From Colwellia sp. (GTDB lineage Bacteria > Pseudomonadota > Gammaproteobacteria > Enterobacterales > Alteromonadaceae), in NCBI GenBank assembly GCA_029938115.1, contig JAPYOP010000002.1:6216-70215 (forward strand): DNA of 64,000 bases. The letters run 5' to 3'. The notes beneath the pieces are model-generated. The model was not told the DNA's origin. It saw only the letters and a program-made list of their open reading frames with translations, and ran no database searches. A program made the translations under genes and the position numbers. Shown piece after piece: positions 46,084 through 60,126 of the stretch. Within the stretch, counting starts at the first letter, position 1. Every line of letters starts with the position of its first letter.

Positions 46084-49000
46084 ATGACGACTAAGAACAA
46101 TTTATCCATTGATAAACGGCTAATTATTTGCGGTGTTTTCTTTACGCTATTAGTTGCCATTTTCTGGTCATATTCTCGCTACCCAGCTTTAGATTTAAAA
46201 GCCGCAATGTCTGATACCTTAGGTGTGGAAGGCGGTTTAAGCTTTGATTCCAGTTACGACCTCAGCACAGCTGCAAATATTATTGAAAAAATAGGGTATA
46301 CCCTACTAAATTGGATTCATGTTAACGAACAAGGCATGATGTTTGGTTTAGCCTTATCAACGGTTTTGCTAGTGCTTTTACCGCTTATTGTTAATCGCTT
46401 ACCTCAAGGAAGGATCTCTTCAGTTTTTTCTGGTTTAATGCTTGGGATCCCTTTAGGGCTTTGTGTCAACTGCTCTGCACCTATTGCTTACGGCCTATAT
46501 CAACGTAACGTAAGAGCAGAAACAGCCTTGGTTACTATGCTCAGTTCTCCCTTGTTAAATATTATTGTGTTAACAATGGCGTTTAGTTTGTTCCCTGCCT
46601 ATTTGGTCATTATCAAACTCATACTTTCACTTATTCTAATTCTTTTTGTTGTGCCTTTGATTGTCCATACTATTCAAGACGAAGTACCTCAAATTAATAA
46701 AGCGGATCAAGACAACGAACACTTTTTTGAACAATGCGAGATAACTAGTCAACTGACATGGTTAGCAGCCGCGACTTGGGTAACTAAAGAGCTCTTTACT
46801 CAAGGCCTTTGGCTTTTAAGAAAAATGCTGCCATTGATGTTACTTGCAGGGCTTATTGGTTCGATATTCATTACAATAATTCCTTGGCATAACCTGATTG
46901 AATACCTTCCTCAAAGCAATAATTTTTGGATGATAATGGCTTTAGTTCTGCTCGCTTTATTTGCACTAATACTGCCTGTGCCCATCACGTTTGACATTAT
47001 TCTTGCTGCGATATTATTCATCAATGATGTGCCTGTAGTTTATATAGCGGCTTTATTGTTCACTTTGGGAAGTTTCAGCATTTATTCTTGGTTTGTTTTA
47101 GTCAAAGCGGGAGCAATTAAAACAGCAACAGCACTTGCGGCAGTGATTCTTGTTTTCGGTGTATTATCCGGATTAATAAGCCACTATTACCAACAAAACT
47201 TTATTGAAACTGAAAATTTTAAAGCGTTTACTAAGTTAAGTCATATTCAAGAAAAATCTAGTTTTCCGCCTAAAAACATTGCTAAGAATAAAACTAAAAA
47301 CATCATTAAAAAACCCTATAAAAAACTGTCACAAGAAGAAATGCTTCGGTTAAAGAAAAAGGCCTTGTTTGAAAATAAGGAACAAGATGCAAAGGAGAAC
47401 TTTAAAGCATTTTGTCAATTAAATACGATCACACAAACGCGCGTGATTCCTCAAAGAATCATGGTACCAAAGCTGCCGGCAAGCACCGCTCCCGAACAAA
47501 AATGGCAAAATTATAACGAAAGTAATTCTATTCAGTATTTGCCTTTAAGAAAATCAATAACGCTGAACACCAACAGTGAATTTCACCTTCAATACAGCTC
47601 AGGTGAAAGTTTAGGTTTTAACTATCACCCAAAACCTTTATATGAACAGTTTATTGTTCCTTTTATTCAAACAAACTCTCTGGCAAGTGGTGACTTTAAT
47701 AATGATGGCTGGCTAGATGTCGTTGTCGGTACATATTCAGGCGTTTACCTGTATCTAAATATTGATGGTGCTTTTGAATTGTCTCCACAAAATAACATCT
47801 TTAGCTTTGATGAAGGAATAACAGGAGCCATTGCCTTACAAGATATTGATAATAATGGCTGGTTAGATCTTATTTGGAGCAGTGATAAAAATGGCGGATT
47901 TATCGCCTATAATCATCAAGGGAAATTTGACGAGATAATCAAACTTCCTGTCGATAAAAGGATTGCTTTTGCGATAGCGTTTGATGACATTGATCATGAT
48001 GGCGATCTCGATATTTTTTGGGGACAATATTTTAATGAATGGATGCACACTAAACCAAGCCAAAACTTACTCTTAATGCAACAACAAGGTGAGTTTGTTA
48101 TGAAGACCTTGCCGGGGCCCCCTGGCTCTGCGTTAACGGCACTTTTTAGTGACTTAAATAATGACGGTACTAGAGAATTACTTATCGGTAATGAATTTGA
48201 ACAGCCCGATATGTATTATTTATCACCTTTGAAAAAAGACTTTCAAAGCTGGTTAACGTATTGGCCGTCAGTACCTTTTGCAACCATGAGTTTATCAAGT
48301 GCAGATATAGATAATGACTTAACGTTTGAAAGCTATCATGCTCAAATTACCTTTAACCCTAGCTCTGGTGGTTTACGAGTACCACTGATAAAACGTCAAG
48401 CTTATGTTGAACAATATTGTAAAAACAACAATAATCTTGAATGTAAAGAAGCAGAATCTATAGTCAAAATAGTTTCGGCAAAGCGCAGAAAAATGGCCGG
48501 AAGTTGCTTGGATTTAAACGATAACGCTCAGTTTGAATGTTTAGCTTTGTTATTAACTAAACCTAACTTACAAGATAGCTATGAAGCGGTGCAAATAAAA
48601 GATCGTCTAACATTATGCGGTTTACTATCAAGTTATTCTGTTAAGTTACAACAGCATTGTGTTCACAAACTTAATATTATTGCTAATAAAAAGCAGTTAG
48701 AAAAAATACGTCTTGAAAATGACAATATTCCCTCAGTAGAACCAAACAACAGTTCAATTAATTACCTAAAACAAAAAGAACGAGTAAATATGCTTTATAA
48801 GCATGGCAATAATATTACAGCAGTTGATTTAGCGATGGATTACCAGGTTGATATTACGGGCTGGGCTTGGAATGCGAAATTTGCCGATTTAGATGGTGAC
48901 AGCTGGCAAGATCTTTTTGTAGTCAATGGTTACAGTGAATTGCAATCAGTAACCTCAAATGCTTGGTATCGAAATATAGAGGGTAAAAAATTCCAAGAAC

Positions 49001-49419
49001 ATGCGCAGCAAGTTGGTTTAGCGCATTTTAATGACATGCTGAGTTATCTATATGTTGACAGTGATAACGATGGTGACTTAGATATTATTGCCTTTGATAT
49101 TCAAGGAAGGCTGCATACTTGGCAAAATAAAGAGTCATTAAACAACCATATTCAAATAGAGCTAGATGATACATCAGGTAATAACAAAGGCATTGGCGCA
49201 AAAATCATTATTCATTATGGTGGGGAGAAAAACCTCAAACAAATTAGAGAAATAAAAGCCAGTGGTGGTTTTTTATCAATGGATGCACCTTTGGCACATT
49301 TTGGCTTAGCAGAATTTAACAGCGTCACAAAAATTGAAGTTGTTATTGATCAAAACAAGGTAAGAACATTTTATGGACCATTCACTAGCGGAAATCGCTA
49401 CCGACTAGTATTGAAATAA
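46084..49419 (+). CDS. Fusion of DUF318-type permease with FG-GAP and ASPIC/UnbV domains
   Basis: An 1111-residue protein. Residues 1-380 are polytopic, about 8-9 membrane helices in two halves. They resemble DUF318/ArsP permeases, including LGIPLGLCVNCSAPIAYGLY with C127 and C130, a SSPLLNII helix and a second-half LPVPITFDIILAAILFINDV. A charged linker follows. From about 530 come FG-GAP/VCBS calcium-binding units (SGDFNNDGWLDVVVG, QDIDNNGWLDLIWS, DDIDHDGDLDIFWG, SDLNNDGTRELLIG, ADLDGDSWQDLFVV, DSDNDGDLDIIAF). A six-cysteine insert (about 780-875) splits them, and an ASPIC/UnbV domain ends the protein. Transport substrate and function are unknown. It has no clear Shine-Dalgarno and no close partner. 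Confidence 0.8.
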   Translation: MTTKNNLSIDKRLIICGVFFTLLVAIFWSYSRYPALDLKAAMSDTLGVEGGLSFDSSYDLSTAANIIEKIGYTLLNWIHVNEQGMMFGLALSTVLLVLLPLIVNRLPQGRISSVFSGLMLGIPLGLCVNCSAPIAYGLYQRNVRAETALVTMLSSPLLNIIVLTMAFSLFPAYLVIIKLILSLILILFVVPLIVHTIQDEVPQINKADQDNEHFFEQCEITSQLTWLAAATWVTKELFTQGLWLLRKMLPLMLLAGLIGSIFITIIPWHNLIEYLPQSNNFWMIMALVLLALFALILPVPITFDIILAAILFINDVPVVYIAALLFTLGSFSIYSWFVLVKAGAIKTATALAAVILVFGVLSGLISHYYQQNFIETENFKAFTKLSHIQEKSSFPPKNIAKNKTKNIIKKPYKKLSQEEMLRLKKKALFENKEQDAKENFKAFCQLNTITQTRVIPQRIMVPKLPASTAPEQKWQNYNESNSIQYLPLRKSITLNTNSEFHLQYSSGESLGFNYHPKPLYEQFIVPFIQTNSLASGDFNNDGWLDVVVGTYSGVYLYLNIDGAFELSPQNNIFSFDEGITGAIALQDIDNNGWLDLIWSSDKNGGFIAYNHQGKFDEIIKLPVDKRIAFAIAFDDIDHDGDLDIFWGQYFNEWMHTKPSQNLLLMQQQGEFVMKTLPGPPGSALTALFSDLNNDGTRELLIGNEFEQPDMYYLSPLKKDFQSWLTYWPSVPFATMSLSSADIDNDLTFESYHAQITFNPSSGGLRVPLIKRQAYVEQYCKNNNNLECKEAESIVKIVSAKRRKMAGSCLDLNDNAQFECLALLLTKPNLQDSYEAVQIKDRLTLCGLLSSYSVKLQQHCVHKLNIIANKKQLEKIRLENDNIPSVEPNNSSINYLKQKERVNMLYKHGNNITAVDLAMDYQVDITGWAWNAKFADLDGDSWQDLFVVNGYSELQSVTSNAWYRNIEGKKFQEHAQQVGLAHFNDMLSYLYVDSDNDGDLDIIAFDIQGRLHTWQNKESLNNHIQIELDDTSGNNKGIGAKIIIHYGGEKNLKQIREIKASGGFLSMDAPLAHFGLAEFNSVTKIEVVIDQNKVRTFYGPFTSGNRYRLVLK

Positions 49420-49832
49420 TCAAGACTACACCAACGCCATAACACAACGTTATGCCGCTAAAAGCAGACTAACGATCAACTTATTTATTATCCAGCCCCT
49501 ACCCTCACAAAGCATTAACATGCACATTGAAATCTTAACCTGTAAATTACATTTAAAACACAAATGTACAACCGCATTACAATACCCTCCTCAAAAAAAG
49601 CATCAATTCCGCAATAGATAACACGCTGAAAAAGAAGAGAAAAGACCTTTAAATGATATAGGTCATTTTTAAAACGACCTATTAAATACAAATAAACGAC
49701 AGCTGCTTTATTGCCCTATCTTATTTAATTATTTATTAATAGATCAATGCCAAAAAAGTGTGCCTAACAGCAATAATAAGAACAACACATTTTTTGGATA
49801 CCTTAACCATGTCAAACTATAAAGAGGATAAA
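49420..49832. other. Intergenic region upstream of the subtilase pair
   Basis: About 410 bases with no gene that I would defend. It contains GACCT, AGGTC and GACCT elements at 49644, 49660 and 49676, spaced 16 bases apart in alternating orientation, and a CATAAC/GTTATG hairpin near 49438-49454. The promoter of the subtilase genes should lie here. Confidence 0.5.
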
Positions 49833-52800
49833 ATGATTTTTAAATCATCTTCGGTCGCATTGTTAATTTCCACTGCTTTAACTAGCCAAGTATACGCTAG
49901 TGATCAGTTAAACACTGATAAGCTTTCAGTAGTAGGAAATAATCAGCACCCAATTAATGTTAATTCTGATGCAACAGCATCATTTAAAAGACAACACGAA
50001 ACCAAGGGTATTTATATTCTTCAATTATCTGAAAAAAGTGCTTTAGATAAAGAATATGCTCACTTAGGAAACGATCGTAAAGCCGTTGTAGCAAAAATTG
50101 ACGCACAACAAAAAAGCATTGAAGCATTAATTAAGTCATTGGATAGTGACGCGGTTATTACGCAAAAGATCCGCCTGGTTGATAACTTGATTCGTGTTCA
50201 GATGACTCATGAAGCTGTAGAGCAGCTTAAGTCGAACCAAGAAATAATTTCAATTAATGAAACATCAGCTCAGCCAAATATGACAGCTGATAATGCATTT
50301 AAGCCGTATCCATTTCTGACAATAAAAGATCCAGGCGATGCTGTTACTGTAGCGATTATCGGCTCAGGTGTTGATTATACTCATGCGGCGTTAAATGGTA
50401 CAGGTACAACAGAAGCGTACGATAAGGCATGGGAGAATAGAAGTAATGCTTGGGATGGCTTTCCTACTGATACTGTTATCGGTGGTCTCGATTTATCTGC
50501 ATCACTTGAGGGTTATCATATTGATGATTATAACCCCATTGAAGATAAAAACTTTGTTCTAACAAATGATTATTCATACCATTATCCATCAGGTACAGCG
50601 CAAGCGGCTTTAGTCTTAGCACAAGCACCAGATGCTAAAATTCTAGCCTATAAAGCATTAGACTACGACCGAGTATACTTTTATGCGGCGACGGATGTTG
50701 CTGTTGATCCAAACCAAGATGGTGACTTTAGTGACCGTCCTGACATTTTATTAATTAATTCTTATGGTTCAGGTGCCTTCTACCAAGTTAAAGGCAATGG
50801 TACTTCTTCAACTACTAGACAAATTAACCATGTGCGTCGTTTAGCCGGGTTAGGTTCATTAGTGGTTGCACCTGCAGGTACTTACTATTTTGATACTTTC
50901 CATAGTTTAGCACCACGTGGCGCAACGCCAGAAGCATTAACCGTTGGTTCAGTTAATATTGATAACGAACACATTGTATTATCTCCGTTTACTCCAGCGG
51001 GTCCATCACGTGGTGATGATATGCTAAAACCAGATGTTGTTGCACAAGCCGAAGGGCTTTTTGCTGCAAAGGCAGGTACTGGAGATGGAACAACTGAATT
51101 AGTTACGACAGCCGCTTATGCCGCAGCGAATGCAGCAGGTGTTGCGGCACGTGTTTGGGCAAGAGAACCTAACCTAAGTTCATTAGAAGTTAAAGCTTTG
51201 GTTGCCAACACTGCGATTAGTGAAGGTATTACGGGTATTAAAGAAACCGTAAACGAAGAAGGTTTCAGTGTCGAGATAACGAAAGTAGCTGAAGTGCCAT
51301 TTATGGGAACGGGTCTTGTTAGTGCTGAAAATATCGATAAAGCACAATCGGTCCTTTGGGAGACAGGTAGCTACCAACCAAGCTTAGCGTTTGGTCACAT
51401 TGATGTAGCAAGCACGGTAAGTGAAACGCGTAATATCACCTTGAAAAACTTATCAAATAAGCCACAAAGTTATAGCGTATCTTTAACTAAAAATGGTGAA
51501 AAATCCAATAACGCGGCTGTTAGCTTCGTCTTTCCTGAAACAGTGAGTGTACCCGCCAATACGGCGATTACCTTCCCTGTTACTTTAACAATAAATGATG
51601 AGTTATTGACTAACTTCCCGTTAACAAAAGGTTCTGATTATAGCATTGAAAAATGGGCTGAAGCGGCCATTAATGGGTATCTGACTTTTACTAACACAAA
51701 TGCAGAAGCAAATGATGCTATGCTTAAAATGGGCTGGCTAGTCTACCCGAAAAAAGCAACACAATTCACTAAGTCAAACACAGATCTTACCAGTTCATTG
51801 TTGCCACTACATTCTGATGACTATCGAGCAAATAACACCGCATCAGGCTGGTGGACTGAGGGAAACTTAATTGACATAACTAACGAGGGTAATAGTGAGC
51901 GTACTATTGTTTCTTTGCCGTTAATACACAACAAAGATTATCCTGATGCGCGTAAAGATGGTTCGCAAGGTCATATTATTAAGTCAGTAGGATCAAAAGT
52001 TTACCCTAATGAACAATGTGAATCTGGTCAAGCTATAGCCATTAGTATTGAAATGTTTGACCCTATTGAAATTGCGATGGCAGAGCATATGGATCGTGGT
52101 TCTCATTTAGTTACCATGCGTGCTTACAATGCAGCCTATGCAAATGCTCAAGGGGCTCATCCTGATATTGCTGAACGAAATGCCACTGATGCTGATTTGT
52201 TATTTTATTTTCAAGTAGAATTAGACGATAGTGGTAAACCATTTACCAAGTATATCGATTACTCAATGGAGTTTGATCATTGGAACCCTACAGCGCGTTA
52301 CAGGAGAACTAGCTTAGAAACGAATATTGCCCCAGGCGGTAAAATCGTCATGGTTAATACCTGTATGGACGACTTATACCGTGAAGAATATCCAGGTCTT
52401 GCAAGCTTTAATGAAAAGCTAGGCTGGCAGTTTGGTACTGATCGCGATGCCGTATCGTCTATTCATGAGTCAATGGTACGTTTTAACCCGGTATTAGGTG
52501 GTGATTTTTGGCAAGAGATAGTTGACCACACAGGTGAAGATGGTTATCCAAATTGGTGGGACACAAACTGTCAACCTAAATCGTGGAAACCTGACAACTG
52601 TATTGAAAGTGCGACTTTCTTCTTAGCTTTCTCTGCAGGTTCGGCAGTATTACCAGCTGATGTTGTTAATATTGATCCTGATGAACGTGACTTAGACACA
52701 TTAACTTGGTCACCTATGACTACTATTGCAGCTGGAGAATCAGCTGTTGTTTATTCAGGCATCACTGCTCAATGTGACCCAGGAGTTGTTTCAACGGGTA

Positions 52801-53627
52801 ACTGGATAACGCATGAAGATTGTCCTGCTGGGATTATTATTTTCGAATTAGAAAATAATAATATTTCAAAAGTGCCTATGACGAGTAATTATGACTCTTC
52901 TGCACTAGCGAACCAAAGTTTTAATGTCTATGAGAGTGTTGCTAATGGCACTGTAGTTGGTACCGTTAAAATTGTCTCTGCACAGTTTTTCGCTTCAGAT
53001 GAACAACGAAATGCTCAAGCCTATTTAATCAATGCTTTACCAGGTATACCATTTGCGTTATCAACTGACGGTGAATTAACAGTGATTAACGCTGATGCAT
53101 TAGATTATGAATCCCTTAATAAACATTATGTACTTCAGATTCAAGTTGACCATGAAAACCGTGATTCAGGAACTGTAGAAGTAATTGTTAATGTATCTAA
53201 CAACAACGATATAGCGCCAATGCAAGTTAACAAAATAGCAACGATGACTGCCACTGTTGGTACTCAATTTACTACCAACATTGCCAAGTCATTTACTGAT
53301 GTTGAAGGTGATGGTGTATCGTTTACTTCTAGCGATTTACCAAGCGGTTTAAATATAGACCTTTCAGGTAATATTTCAGGTAAACCTGAGGAAGCAGGCG
53401 ATATTAGTTCGACAATTATCGTATCTGATGGCATGAACCAAACAACCTCGTCGGTAAGTTTCTCGATTGCTGCTAACAACTCGTCAACCCCAACTACTCC
53501 AGCTACTCCTGCAAACTCGGCACCAGAAAACAGTGCAGAAAACTCATCAGATTCTTCAGGTGGTAGTTTTGGTTTTGTATTTTTGATGTTAGCTAGCCTA
53601 AGCCTACTTAATCGTAGAACTAAGTAA
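49833..53627 (+). CDS. Catalytically dead subtilase-like (S8) secreted protein with GlyGly-CTERM
   Basis: A 1264-residue exported protein. The chosen ATG at 49833 has AGAGGA 5 bases before; the frame is open to 49758. Signal peptide 1-23, I9-type prodomain (about 40-150), S8-like fold (about 160-500), fibronectin-type repeats, a cadherin-like putative Ig domain (about 1135-1220), a Ser/Pro/Thr spacer and a GlyGly-CTERM tail (SSGGSFGFVFLMLASLSLLN, then RRTK). All catalytic positions are changed: AIIGSGVDYTH has G177 for the Asp; YPSGTAQAA has S253 for the His; TTAAYAAANAAG has A428 for the Ser; and APAGTYYF lacks the oxyanion Asn. It is upstream of an intact homologue. Confidence 0.85.
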   Translation: MIFKSSSVALLISTALTSQVYASDQLNTDKLSVVGNNQHPINVNSDATASFKRQHETKGIYILQLSEKSALDKEYAHLGNDRKAVVAKIDAQQKSIEALIKSLDSDAVITQKIRLVDNLIRVQMTHEAVEQLKSNQEIISINETSAQPNMTADNAFKPYPFLTIKDPGDAVTVAIIGSGVDYTHAALNGTGTTEAYDKAWENRSNAWDGFPTDTVIGGLDLSASLEGYHIDDYNPIEDKNFVLTNDYSYHYPSGTAQAALVLAQAPDAKILAYKALDYDRVYFYAATDVAVDPNQDGDFSDRPDILLINSYGSGAFYQVKGNGTSSTTRQINHVRRLAGLGSLVVAPAGTYYFDTFHSLAPRGATPEALTVGSVNIDNEHIVLSPFTPAGPSRGDDMLKPDVVAQAEGLFAAKAGTGDGTTELVTTAAYAAANAAGVAARVWAREPNLSSLEVKALVANTAISEGITGIKETVNEEGFSVEITKVAEVPFMGTGLVSAENIDKAQSVLWETGSYQPSLAFGHIDVASTVSETRNITLKNLSNKPQSYSVSLTKNGEKSNNAAVSFVFPETVSVPANTAITFPVTLTINDELLTNFPLTKGSDYSIEKWAEAAINGYLTFTNTNAEANDAMLKMGWLVYPKKATQFTKSNTDLTSSLLPLHSDDYRANNTASGWWTEGNLIDITNEGNSERTIVSLPLIHNKDYPDARKDGSQGHIIKSVGSKVYPNEQCESGQAIAISIEMFDPIEIAMAEHMDRGSHLVTMRAYNAAYANAQGAHPDIAERNATDADLLFYFQVELDDSGKPFTKYIDYSMEFDHWNPTARYRRTSLETNIAPGGKIVMVNTCMDDLYREEYPGLASFNEKLGWQFGTDRDAVSSIHESMVRFNPVLGGDFWQEIVDHTGEDGYPNWWDTNCQPKSWKPDNCIESATFFLAFSAGSAVLPADVVNIDPDERDLDTLTWSPMTTIAAGESAVVYSGITAQCDPGVVSTGNWITHEDCPAGIIIFELENNNISKVPMTSNYDSSALANQSFNVYESVANGTVVGTVKIVSAQFFASDEQRNAQAYLINALPGIPFALSTDGELTVINADALDYESLNKHYVLQIQVDHENRDSGTVEVIVNVSNNNDIAPMQVNKIATMTATVGTQFTTNIAKSFTDVEGDGVSFTSSDLPSGLNIDLSGNISGKPEEAGDISSTIIVSDGMNQTTSSVSFSIAANNSSTPTTPATPANSAPENSAENSSDSSGGSFGFVFLMLASLSLLNRRTK

Positions 53628-53638
53628 ATATTGAATAT

Positions 53639-53667
53639 TAAGAGGCTTAATTGCCTCTTATAAGAGG
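53639..53667 (+). promoter_or_regulatory. Hairpin overlapping the ribosome binding site region between the subtilases
   Basis: TAAGAGGC (53639-53646) pairs with GCCTCTTA (53653-53660), and the next bases TAAGAGG (53661-53667) repeat the first arm and contain the Shine-Dalgarno of the second gene. The middle arm could pair with either, so translation of the second subtilase may depend on ribosomes ending at the stop codon 12 bases upstream. Confidence 0.45.
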
Positions 53668-57908: not shown

Positions 57909-57936
57909 AAGGGCTTCTAATTTTAGAAGCCCTTTT
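57909..57936 (+). terminator. Terminator after the subtilase pair
   Basis: AAGGGCTTCT / AGAAGCCCTT forms a 10-bp stem with a 6-base loop followed by TT and a T-rich tail, 31 bases beyond the stop codon. Confidence 0.9.
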
Positions 57937-58068: not shown

Positions 58069-60126
58069 ATGACAAAAAAAATTACTAACAGATTTAAAAT
58101 AAACGAAATTATCGTTGACTGTCAAAGTATGACACTTGAAAACAATGAAAAAAAAATTAAATTACCCGTTAAAGTTTTTGAGTTTTTAAAATTATTTTTA
58201 ATTAATGAAAATAATATTGTGGATCGAGAAGAAGCGATAAAATTGATCTGGCTAGGCAATGAAGGAGTCGGGAAACGTGGTTATGTGAATGCCATGTGGC
58301 AAATTCGCAAAGCATTTACTGACTTAGGTGAAAATAGTGATGAATTATTTACTACCTTACCAAAAGTAGGTTATTTTCTAGCAGTTAAACCTATCTGTAT
58401 TGAAGATAAAATTGGCTCCTATCGTAAGGTTAAACTATATTTCGGATTGTTTATTGTACTATTAACAATTGCTGCAAGTGTTTCTTTCTATTGGTATCAG
58501 AATAACTATATCAATGAAAGGCTACCTTTTCCTAAAAGTATTCAATTACAAAGCCAAACAAATTTTCAAGGCATTGAAGAACAACCCTCTGTTTCTCATA
58601 ACGGTCGTAAATTAGCTTTTTCTTGGTTACAAGAAAACAAAAAGGCCAAAATTTATATTAAAGATTTACAAAATAAAAACTCTACCCTTAAACTAATATC
58701 ATTGAGCAACTACGATGAGCTATCCCCAGCTTGGTCTGCTGATGACCAATCTTTAGCTTACGTAAAAATTATAGAAGATCAGTGTGAGGTGAGAGTCAAA
58801 CACATACTTACGAATAAAGACCGTTTAATTGACAAAGAGTGCTCCTACTCTTCGTTTTGGAATATTCTTGATTGGTCAAATGATGGACTCAATTTAGTTT
58901 ACTCTAAAAAAATCAATAATAAAGTGGCTATATTTAAGTATAACTTTGCAAACAATACTAGCGTACAGGTAAGTTACCCTCCAACCAATTCAAAAGACAT
59001 CATGGCTATTTGGTTGAATAACAACAGAACCTTAGCTGTTTTAAGGCAAACTCAGCAACAATTTAAAATTATCTTACTTAATGAAGAAGGTGATGAGTCA
59101 ATCCTTGTTGATAATAAAAACTCAATCACTGGCATTGCTTGGAATAATAATCAAAATGCGCTCTATGCGACATACTTGCATGAAGGTAATTATTTTATTT
59201 ATAAAATTGATGTTGAAACGAAAGCAAAAACTCAATTAAAAAATATCAAGGGTGGCTCTAATTTGAGTTTTAATGCAACAACGAACGAATTATTCTTTTC
59301 TAAACATTTACTCAATGAATATATCGTACAGCATTCATTAATTGATCAACGCATAATTCGCAGGGTATCCTCATCCTCAAGAGATATATATGGTGAGTAT
59401 ATTCCTGAAACTGCTAATATTATTTTTACTTCCAATCGCTCTAGTAGCTGGGACTTATGGTTAAAGTCAGATAAAGGTACTATAAATTTAACTAAAGGAA
59501 TAGGCGCTATAGCAACATCTGCTGTTTCCCCTAACAGCAAATATTTTGCTGTTGCGGTAGTAAAAGAAGGACAGAATCAACAGCTATTTCTAGGTTCATT
59601 ACCGGAAGGTGAGCTAGTTCACCTTCAGACACCAGAATTAACCCCAGTATTTCCATCATGGTCAAAAGATGGAAAACGTATTTATTTTAGCGCGATGACT
59701 AATAATAAATCTGGTATTTATCAATATAATCTAGCTAGCAAAGAAATAGAACAGTTAACTCATAGTAATGAAGCACATGCTGTAGAAGGGAACAATGGTG
59801 ATTTATACGTTACAAGAAAATTAGAAAATGGAATTTGGAAATTGACTAATGAAACGAAAACATTCACTAAAGTCATCGATGATTTGCCTTCTGTAGATCC
59901 CGCGAGTTACTTTTGGGAGAATGATACGATTTATTATCTAACTCGCAATCAGCACAACGATTTAGTAAAAAAATATGTAAAAGATGATGATGATGAAATT
60001 ATCGCAACTTATCCCGCAAACTCAATAAGAAAATACAAAGGTATTTCTAAAGCTGATTATCAAAGTTTCATTATCACTTTAAAAAACATTTATGATGCGG
60101 ATATACATTCAATTTCAGTAGAATAA
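58069..60126 (+). CDS. CadC/ToxR-type membrane regulator with periplasmic beta-propeller
   Basis: A 685-residue transmembrane transcription factor. It has an N-terminal OmpR-type winged helix (about 8-108), one membrane helix (about 123-143, LYFGLFIVLLTIAASVSFYW) and a periplasmic TolB/WD40-type propeller (about 165-680). Propeller units such as SYDELSPAWSADDQSLAYVK-like and PVFPSWSKDGKRIYFSAMTN are visible. Proteins of this architecture sense periplasmic conditions and often control neighbouring genes. It lies downstream of the subtilase pair on the same strand, separated from it by a strong terminator. A role in protease control is inference. Confidence 0.85.
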   Translation: MTKKITNRFKINEIIVDCQSMTLENNEKKIKLPVKVFEFLKLFLINENNIVDREEAIKLIWLGNEGVGKRGYVNAMWQIRKAFTDLGENSDELFTTLPKVGYFLAVKPICIEDKIGSYRKVKLYFGLFIVLLTIAASVSFYWYQNNYINERLPFPKSIQLQSQTNFQGIEEQPSVSHNGRKLAFSWLQENKKAKIYIKDLQNKNSTLKLISLSNYDELSPAWSADDQSLAYVKIIEDQCEVRVKHILTNKDRLIDKECSYSSFWNILDWSNDGLNLVYSKKINNKVAIFKYNFANNTSVQVSYPPTNSKDIMAIWLNNNRTLAVLRQTQQQFKIILLNEEGDESILVDNKNSITGIAWNNNQNALYATYLHEGNYFIYKIDVETKAKTQLKNIKGGSNLSFNATTNELFFSKHLLNEYIVQHSLIDQRIIRRVSSSSRDIYGEYIPETANIIFTSNRSSSWDLWLKSDKGTINLTKGIGAIATSAVSPNSKYFAVAVVKEGQNQQLFLGSLPEGELVHLQTPELTPVFPSWSKDGKRIYFSAMTNNKSGIYQYNLASKEIEQLTHSNEAHAVEGNNGDLYVTRKLENGIWKLTNETKTFTKVIDDLPSVDPASYFWENDTIYYLTRNQHNDLVKKYVKDDDDEIIATYPANSIRKYKGISKADYQSFIITLKNIYDADIHSISVE

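Follow-up and report, generated by a model that had tools for sequence, protein, structure and literature searches.

In this work, we analyzed a pair of adjacent subtilase genes within a 64,000-nucleotide stretch of Colwellia sp. DNA (assembly GCA_029938115.1, contig JAPYOP010000002.1; this whole stretch is hereafter the window). The upstream gene, P0001 (49833..53627), encodes a subtilase-family protein of 1264 amino acids that lacks a catalytic site, and the downstream gene, P0002 (53676..57878), encodes a subtilase of 1400 amino acids with a PA domain and the active-site residues D207, H296, N416 and S673. Window positions written here with two dots refer to features on the plus strand. We refer to P0001 and its relatives as PS (pseudo-subtilases) and to the PA-domain subtilases encoded next to them, such as P0002, as AC. 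Our results indicate that PS are probably secreted pseudo-subtilases acting as dedicated non-catalytic partners of the adjoining AC. In total, 41 PS genes from 25 genomes, that of the window included, were examined. The comparisons of trees, column entropy and the ratio of nonsynonymous to synonymous substitution rates (dN/dS) rest on the 31 PS found first, or on pairs taken from these, and the ten PS found in a later rescan were used for triad and neighbour counts only.

The P0001 reading frame runs for 1264 codons without an internal stop, as a preliminary description of the gene had claimed, and its product is recognized by the Pfam subtilase profile PF00082 (70 bits). Its subtilase (S8) domain spans residues 168-461 (50334..51215) and has no PA insert. 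An alignment with nine active-type relatives (P0005, described below, and eight others) places Gly177 (GGC, 50361..50363), Ser253 (TCA, 50589..50591), Thr350 (ACT, 50880..50882) and Ala428 (GCT, 51114..51116) in the columns of the catalytic Asp, the catalytic His, the oxyanion Asn and the nucleophilic Ser, respectively, thereby bearing out the four replacements that the preliminary description had proposed. A separate phmmer alignment with PCSK9 sets the same Thr against the Asn and the same Ala-rich stretch against the Ser region, the Asp and His lying outside the aligned part. Neither the active relatives nor PCSK9 offered, in these sequence alignments, any substitute Asp, His or Ser for the triad sites. 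By profile and fold P0001 is a member of the S8 family, and it has neither the Asp-His-Ser triad nor the oxyanion Asn of an active S8 peptidase. The overall fold of its AlphaFold2 model superposes on subtilisins, a check that had been suggested beforehand. A model of residues 491-1264, computed from three sequences, was poor (predicted local distance difference test score 43, predicted template modelling score 0.37) and was not used.

The loss of the catalytic site extends to the whole family. The catalytic Asp is kept in none of the 41 PS, its column being occupied by Gly (22), Ser (18) or Ala (1). His is present in its column in three PS, the others having Ser, Arg, Met, Thr, Leu, Tyr, Val, Ile or Glu; Asn is found in eight and Ser in three, and two of D, H and S never occur together. 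The alignment of orthologues, likewise suggested beforehand, thus yielded no triad-keeping member. Triad loss is not identical everywhere, since L162-L164 retain the His together with Gly at the Asp and Val at the Ser position. By comparison, 87 of the 92 proteins in a comparison set (that of the window included) read DHNS; the five remaining rows are four PS rows, two of them representing the same Colwellia piezophila gene, and one row unaligned at the site. Among the 31 PS analyzed by column, variability reached the 98th percentile at the Ser position, the 96th at the Asn, the 78th at the His and the 31st at the Asp, which is always a small residue. Strong variation in PS also affects several other columns that do not change among the nine active relatives, some of them in the SLGG and SAGN segments, while 33 of the 269 columns of the dead domain are invariant. 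Lys274 and Arg393 are invariant in the 31 PS and lie outside the columns invariant in the active relatives; to judge from the alignment, they could be marks of a new function.

PS genes were collected by several searches. A search of 60 relatives returned one other full-length match, the C. piezophila gene, and a scan of genome contigs with the single protein P0001 returned no relative. The same scan with alignment A2 found 226 stretches encoding a relative, the best 80 of which were kept, giving 79 loci; two of these 79 hold a PS (C. piezophila and Shewanella insulae) and the other aligned loci are of the intact type, bar one unaligned row. Profile searches detected PS in 16 of 395 genomes of the taxonomic family (6 of 52 genera) and in 12 of 394 genomes of the order, eight of them new. 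A class-wide search (369 genomes, E 1e-40) gave no PS beyond the window's own genome, and its sole other match, in genome G063, has a score typical of the P0005 type (159.6 bits). Where several hundred genomes were searched, no more than two candidates were scored in each, so that the copy numbers from these searches and the partner tally given below are lower bounds. When all candidates were scored in a rescan of 12 carrier genomes, 28 PS genes were recovered, one to six per genome. In one genome, G277, six dead/live modules (L142, L145 and L186-L189) lie within 0.25 Mb, five of them within 0.13 Mb, in what appears as a local expansion. The C. piezophila gene was obtained twice (L016 and L024) and counted once. 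Alignment A4 omits L140, a near copy of L139, and alignment A5 omits L140 and the split locus L129.

The strongest indication of function comes from the neighbourhood. A PA-domain subtilase of the P0002 type adjoins PS in all 41 loci of the 25 genomes, with PS directly upstream and on the same strand in 38 and the two genes head-to-head in three. The triad of the partner is intact in 40 of the 41; in the exception, L129, the partner is broken by an in-frame TAG while PS is intact, and only its longer fragment (959 amino acids) entered the trees and triad counts. An edge-cut partner belonging to a next module (L184:16247-19663) was not counted. The reverse search led to the same association: a partner profile run on the 395 family genomes (two candidates scored per genome) found at least 23 genes at 1535-1821 bits, the next scoring 1251, and 22 of these 23 have a PS next door. 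The 23rd, at L177, is an intact partner with its D, H, N and S motifs, preceded only by a decayed PS scrap of 40 residues (L177:8593-8712). Furthermore, the PS and partner trees mirror each other over 31 loci (Mantel r 0.949, a value reached in none of 9999 permutations), with 22 of 28 splits in common. Six genomes of this set have two systems; in five of them, PS and AC alike are closer to a protein of another genome than to their genome mate, the exception being G277, in which the nearest PS of L142 is its genome mate L145. A regulator-like gene, with a CadC/ToxR-type domain and TolB-like repeats in those scanned, occurs near 34 of the 41 PS loci, in varying place and orientation and sought only within the fetched stretches around these loci. 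It tracks PS less closely (r 0.60), and the partial correlation between PS and AC given the regulator remains 0.92 (28 loci).

PS are also maintained by selection. Nei-Gojobori dN/dS, a further check suggested for this gene, was 0.034-0.181 for the dead domain across all 13 pairs; the whole PS (0.055-0.205) and the partners (0.071-0.187) each yielded a value in 12 of the 13, saturated dS accounting for the missing ones, and in six other PS pairs dS exceeded 1.5. In 11 of the 12 pairs for which both ratios were available, the dead S8 domain had a lower one than the C-terminal part. Purifying selection acts on the dead domain. The preliminary description had argued for selection for a non-proteolytic role and not for decay, and both the low ratios and the absence of any complete triad support it, a non-proteolytic state being what the sequences predict.

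As regards their origin, in an unrooted tree built without the four catalytic columns, a branch with an SH-aLRT (Shimodaira-Hasegawa-like approximate likelihood ratio test) support of 100 separates 19 PS, taken from the 31 known at that stage, from 11 partners, 11 P0005-type enzymes and eight other subtilases. A PA domain was found in none of the 22 PS scanned and in all 29 partners scanned, and the spacing between the Asn and Ser columns is 78-105 residues in the 31 PS versus 210-217 in seven P0005-type rows. Because two distant intact enzymes are equally short (82-84), the PS lineage may never have had a PA domain. The preliminary description had taken P0002 as an intact homologue next door; its four active-site residues are indeed present, but it is a member of a different subfamily and no near copy: BLASTP between P0001 and P0002 gave no significant alignment (best E 0.035), which rules out a near duplication. 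Within the genome, the intact relative closest to P0001 by BLAST is P0005, a GlyGly-CTERM-type enzyme with PA and cadherin-like domains, whose gene (L015:5373-8804, on G000:C94) is found on the same contig as P0001, some 38 kb further downstream. PA-containing GlyGly-CTERM subtilases of this type share with PS a DYTH motif, a DPNxDGDxSD loop and a cadherin-like repeat, whereas they have the triad and the PA domain and PS stand apart from them on the tree. In P0001 the loop reads DPNQDGDFSD (residues 292-301, 50706-50735); it is largely conserved in PS and the P0005 type and resembles a calcium loop, which we presume to be its role. The structures of Bacillus Vpr, subtilisin BPN' and cucumisin (PDB 8jmw, 7am3, 3vta) are titled as proteases or engineered subtilisins, in contrast to PS, which have no triad.

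Both ends of P0001 suggest a surface protein. A signal-peptide-like N-terminus (residues 1-22, 49833..49898) and a GlyGly-CTERM-like tail (SSGGSFG, a hydrophobic stretch and RR; 53553..53624) were recognized by eye, in line with the earlier claim that both are kept, and P0002 has a GlyGly-CTERM-like tail as well. The genome encodes a rhombosortase (172 bits against a cut-off of 84), so that P0001 has the features of a rhombosortase substrate and processing is predicted. A rough GlyGly-CTERM pattern is present in 23 of 31 PS and 28 of 31 partners. The prodomain, also said to be kept, is only partly confirmed: the secondary structure of the AlphaFold2 model suggests an I9-like prodomain at about residues 58-144 (50004..50264), but a Pfam scan gave no I9 match in P0001.

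Within subtilases, the best parallel is found in Clostridioides difficile. Its CspC and CspA have the subtilisin fold with replaced catalytic residues and work in the same pathway as the active subtilase CspB (PMC6636752, PMC12880746), and the prodomain of CspC stays uncleaved (PMC6636752). As with PS in the 41 loci, a pseudoprotease is encoded together with an active subtilase, which is a shared arrangement and not evidence of descent. Csp proteins differ in their role in spore germination and in a jelly-roll insert of about 130 amino acids in the subtilase domain; CspB has 311 residues between H183 and S494 and CspC retains the triad Asp (D105) (PMC6636752), whereas P0001 has 175 residues between positions 253 and 428 and no PS keeps the Asp. 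Because this spacing is too short for a jelly-roll insert and the Asp of CspC is absent, PS are not members of the Csp family, from which they also differ by their length of more than 1200 amino acids, Ig/cadherin-type repeats and GlyGly-CTERM-like tail. By analogy, the best reading is that PS work most like CspA and CspC beside CspB, outside that family. The pseudoprotease state of CspA and CspC has been called apparently unique to C. difficile and Peptostreptococcaceae (PMC6636752), the accessible text of the GlyGly-CTERM paper applies the term pseudoprotease to rhomboids only (PMC3237569), and our literature search, which covered titles, abstracts and a few passages of work other than subscription papers, returned the Csp papers and unrelated work and no report of such a dead/live subtilase pair.

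Adjacency, co-divergence and a retained scaffold make a non-catalytic subunit or a folding or regulatory partner the simplest account of PS. Given the signal-peptide-like starts, the GlyGly-CTERM-like tails and the rhombosortase in the genome, PS and AC would both be delivered to the cell surface via rhombosortase, and PS presumably could not cut off its own prodomain. PS most likely binds the active enzyme through its subtilisin scaffold, its own conserved middle region, or both, and this binding would help AC to fold, hold it in check or aim it, the effect being one of activation, restraint or targeting. It is tempting to speculate further, although we do so tentatively and with slightly more doubt than conviction, that Colwellia- and Shewanella-type bacteria have an undescribed surface protease of two components, with PS and AC as its subunits, in which a catalytic and an obligately dead subtilase have long co-diverged as a module often spread with a CadC/TolB-type regulator and present in six copies in one genome, a counterpart of independent origin to the Csp switch outside spore formers.

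Several observations weigh against the proposed partnership. L129 shows that PS can outlast a broken partner, and L177 shows that a partner can persist alone (its dN/dS is about 0.10, at saturated dS), so that dependence on PS is not absolute. PA-subtilases with lower scores are widespread in the family, being hit in 133 of 395 genomes at E 1e-120, mostly where no PS was found. Some of the agreement between the trees is to be expected because linked genes share their ancestry, and the regulator, whose position varies and which may have undergone exchange, does not make a perfect control. In addition, dS is saturated in about half of the dN/dS pairs, and pairs share sequences. Finally, the two C. 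difficile pseudoproteases are reported to form a complex without CspB (PMC12880746), and the Csp parallel alone does not predict that PS binds the active enzyme.

The preliminary description had listed an inhibitor, a chaperone, a decoy or a binding protein, and the strict pairing narrows this list towards a partner-specific subunit. That PS are instead independent proteins that use their middle and cadherin-like regions to bind a substrate, polymer or surface, their only tie to the protease being joint expression and a target that the protease digests, is rather unlikely: their large conserved non-S8 region with cadherin/Ig-type repeats and the regulator-like gene near 34 of the 41 loci would fit, but it is the dead S8 domain that has the lower dN/dS, and the PS tree agrees more closely with that of the partner than with that of the regulator. 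A dedicated inhibitor or immunity-type protein silencing the partner until it is outside the cell would agree with the position of PS directly before AC in 38 of 41 loci and with a prodomain-bearing subtilase scaffold as suggested by the model; we nevertheless regard it as improbable, as 25 of 29 partners have an I9-type prodomain of their own and the orphan partner at L177 persists without an intact PS.

The other alternatives fare worse. The subtilisin-like overall fold of the model would suit a decoy soaking up protease inhibitors of hosts or competitors. Subtilisin inhibitors contact the SLGG and SAGN segments of the substrate cleft. The corresponding columns (Ser295, Leu296, Ser325 and Asn328 of P0005) are invariant in the nine active relatives but highly varied in the 31 PS and, because several substrate-cleft columns are thus altered too, a decoy is very unlikely. 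There is equally little to be expected from an enzyme with a different, hidden active site: the charged Lys274 and Arg393 might be invoked for it, yet Asp181, Asp220, Asp232 and Lys399 are invariant in active relatives too and look structural. As for a decaying pseudogene, the replacement of all catalytic positions and the decayed PS copy at L177 could be taken as its signs, but none of the 41 frames is interrupted or shortened, the pairs examined have low dN/dS and one genome holds up to six copies; conservation and dN/dS lead us to reject decay, the probability of which we consider negligible.

PS form another bacterial pseudo-subtilase family beyond Csp, and the 41 members examined all adjoin a partner of the active type. 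Comparison and experiment can now address which surface takes the place of catalysis and in what way a live protease is served by a dead one. If PS genes are annotated simply as S8 peptidases, as is likely, the counts of secreted proteases in such bacteria are too high.

Some further features of the window deserve mention. An in-frame GTG at 49758 is a possible alternative start of P0001, but the ATG at 49833 is favoured by an AGAGGA ribosome-binding-like stretch and by the onset of the putative signal peptide. The middle region (about residues 641-1020, 51753..52892) is common to the PS family in our alignments; it has no Pfam match, and a PDB sequence search with 51753-52920 was empty at E 1. 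A cadherin-like repeat follows (residues 1029-1121, 52917..53195; 23.6 bits, under the Pfam cut-off of 28.8), matches to which were found at E 0.01 in 14 of the 22 PS members scanned. The gap of 48 nucleotides between PS and partner contains a predicted RNA hairpin of 8 bp without a T-run (53639..53660, z -2.0), and a terminator-like hairpin of 11 pairs lies directly 3' of the partner gene (57909..57934); a scan for promoters and terminators showed no excess of either (23 promoter-like sites versus 26.3 in shuffled sequences, and 6 terminator-like sites versus 6.1). Downstream, 58069..60126 encodes a regulator-like protein of 685 amino acids with TolB-type PD40 repeats (68.8 bits) and a CadC/ToxR-type DNA-binding domain (25.4 bits, cut-off 26.2). 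Upstream of P0001, a frame of 1111 amino acids (46084-49419) joins half of an ArsP-like permease (residues 87-368) to FG-GAP repeats and an UnbV/ASPIC end, which is an unusual combination.

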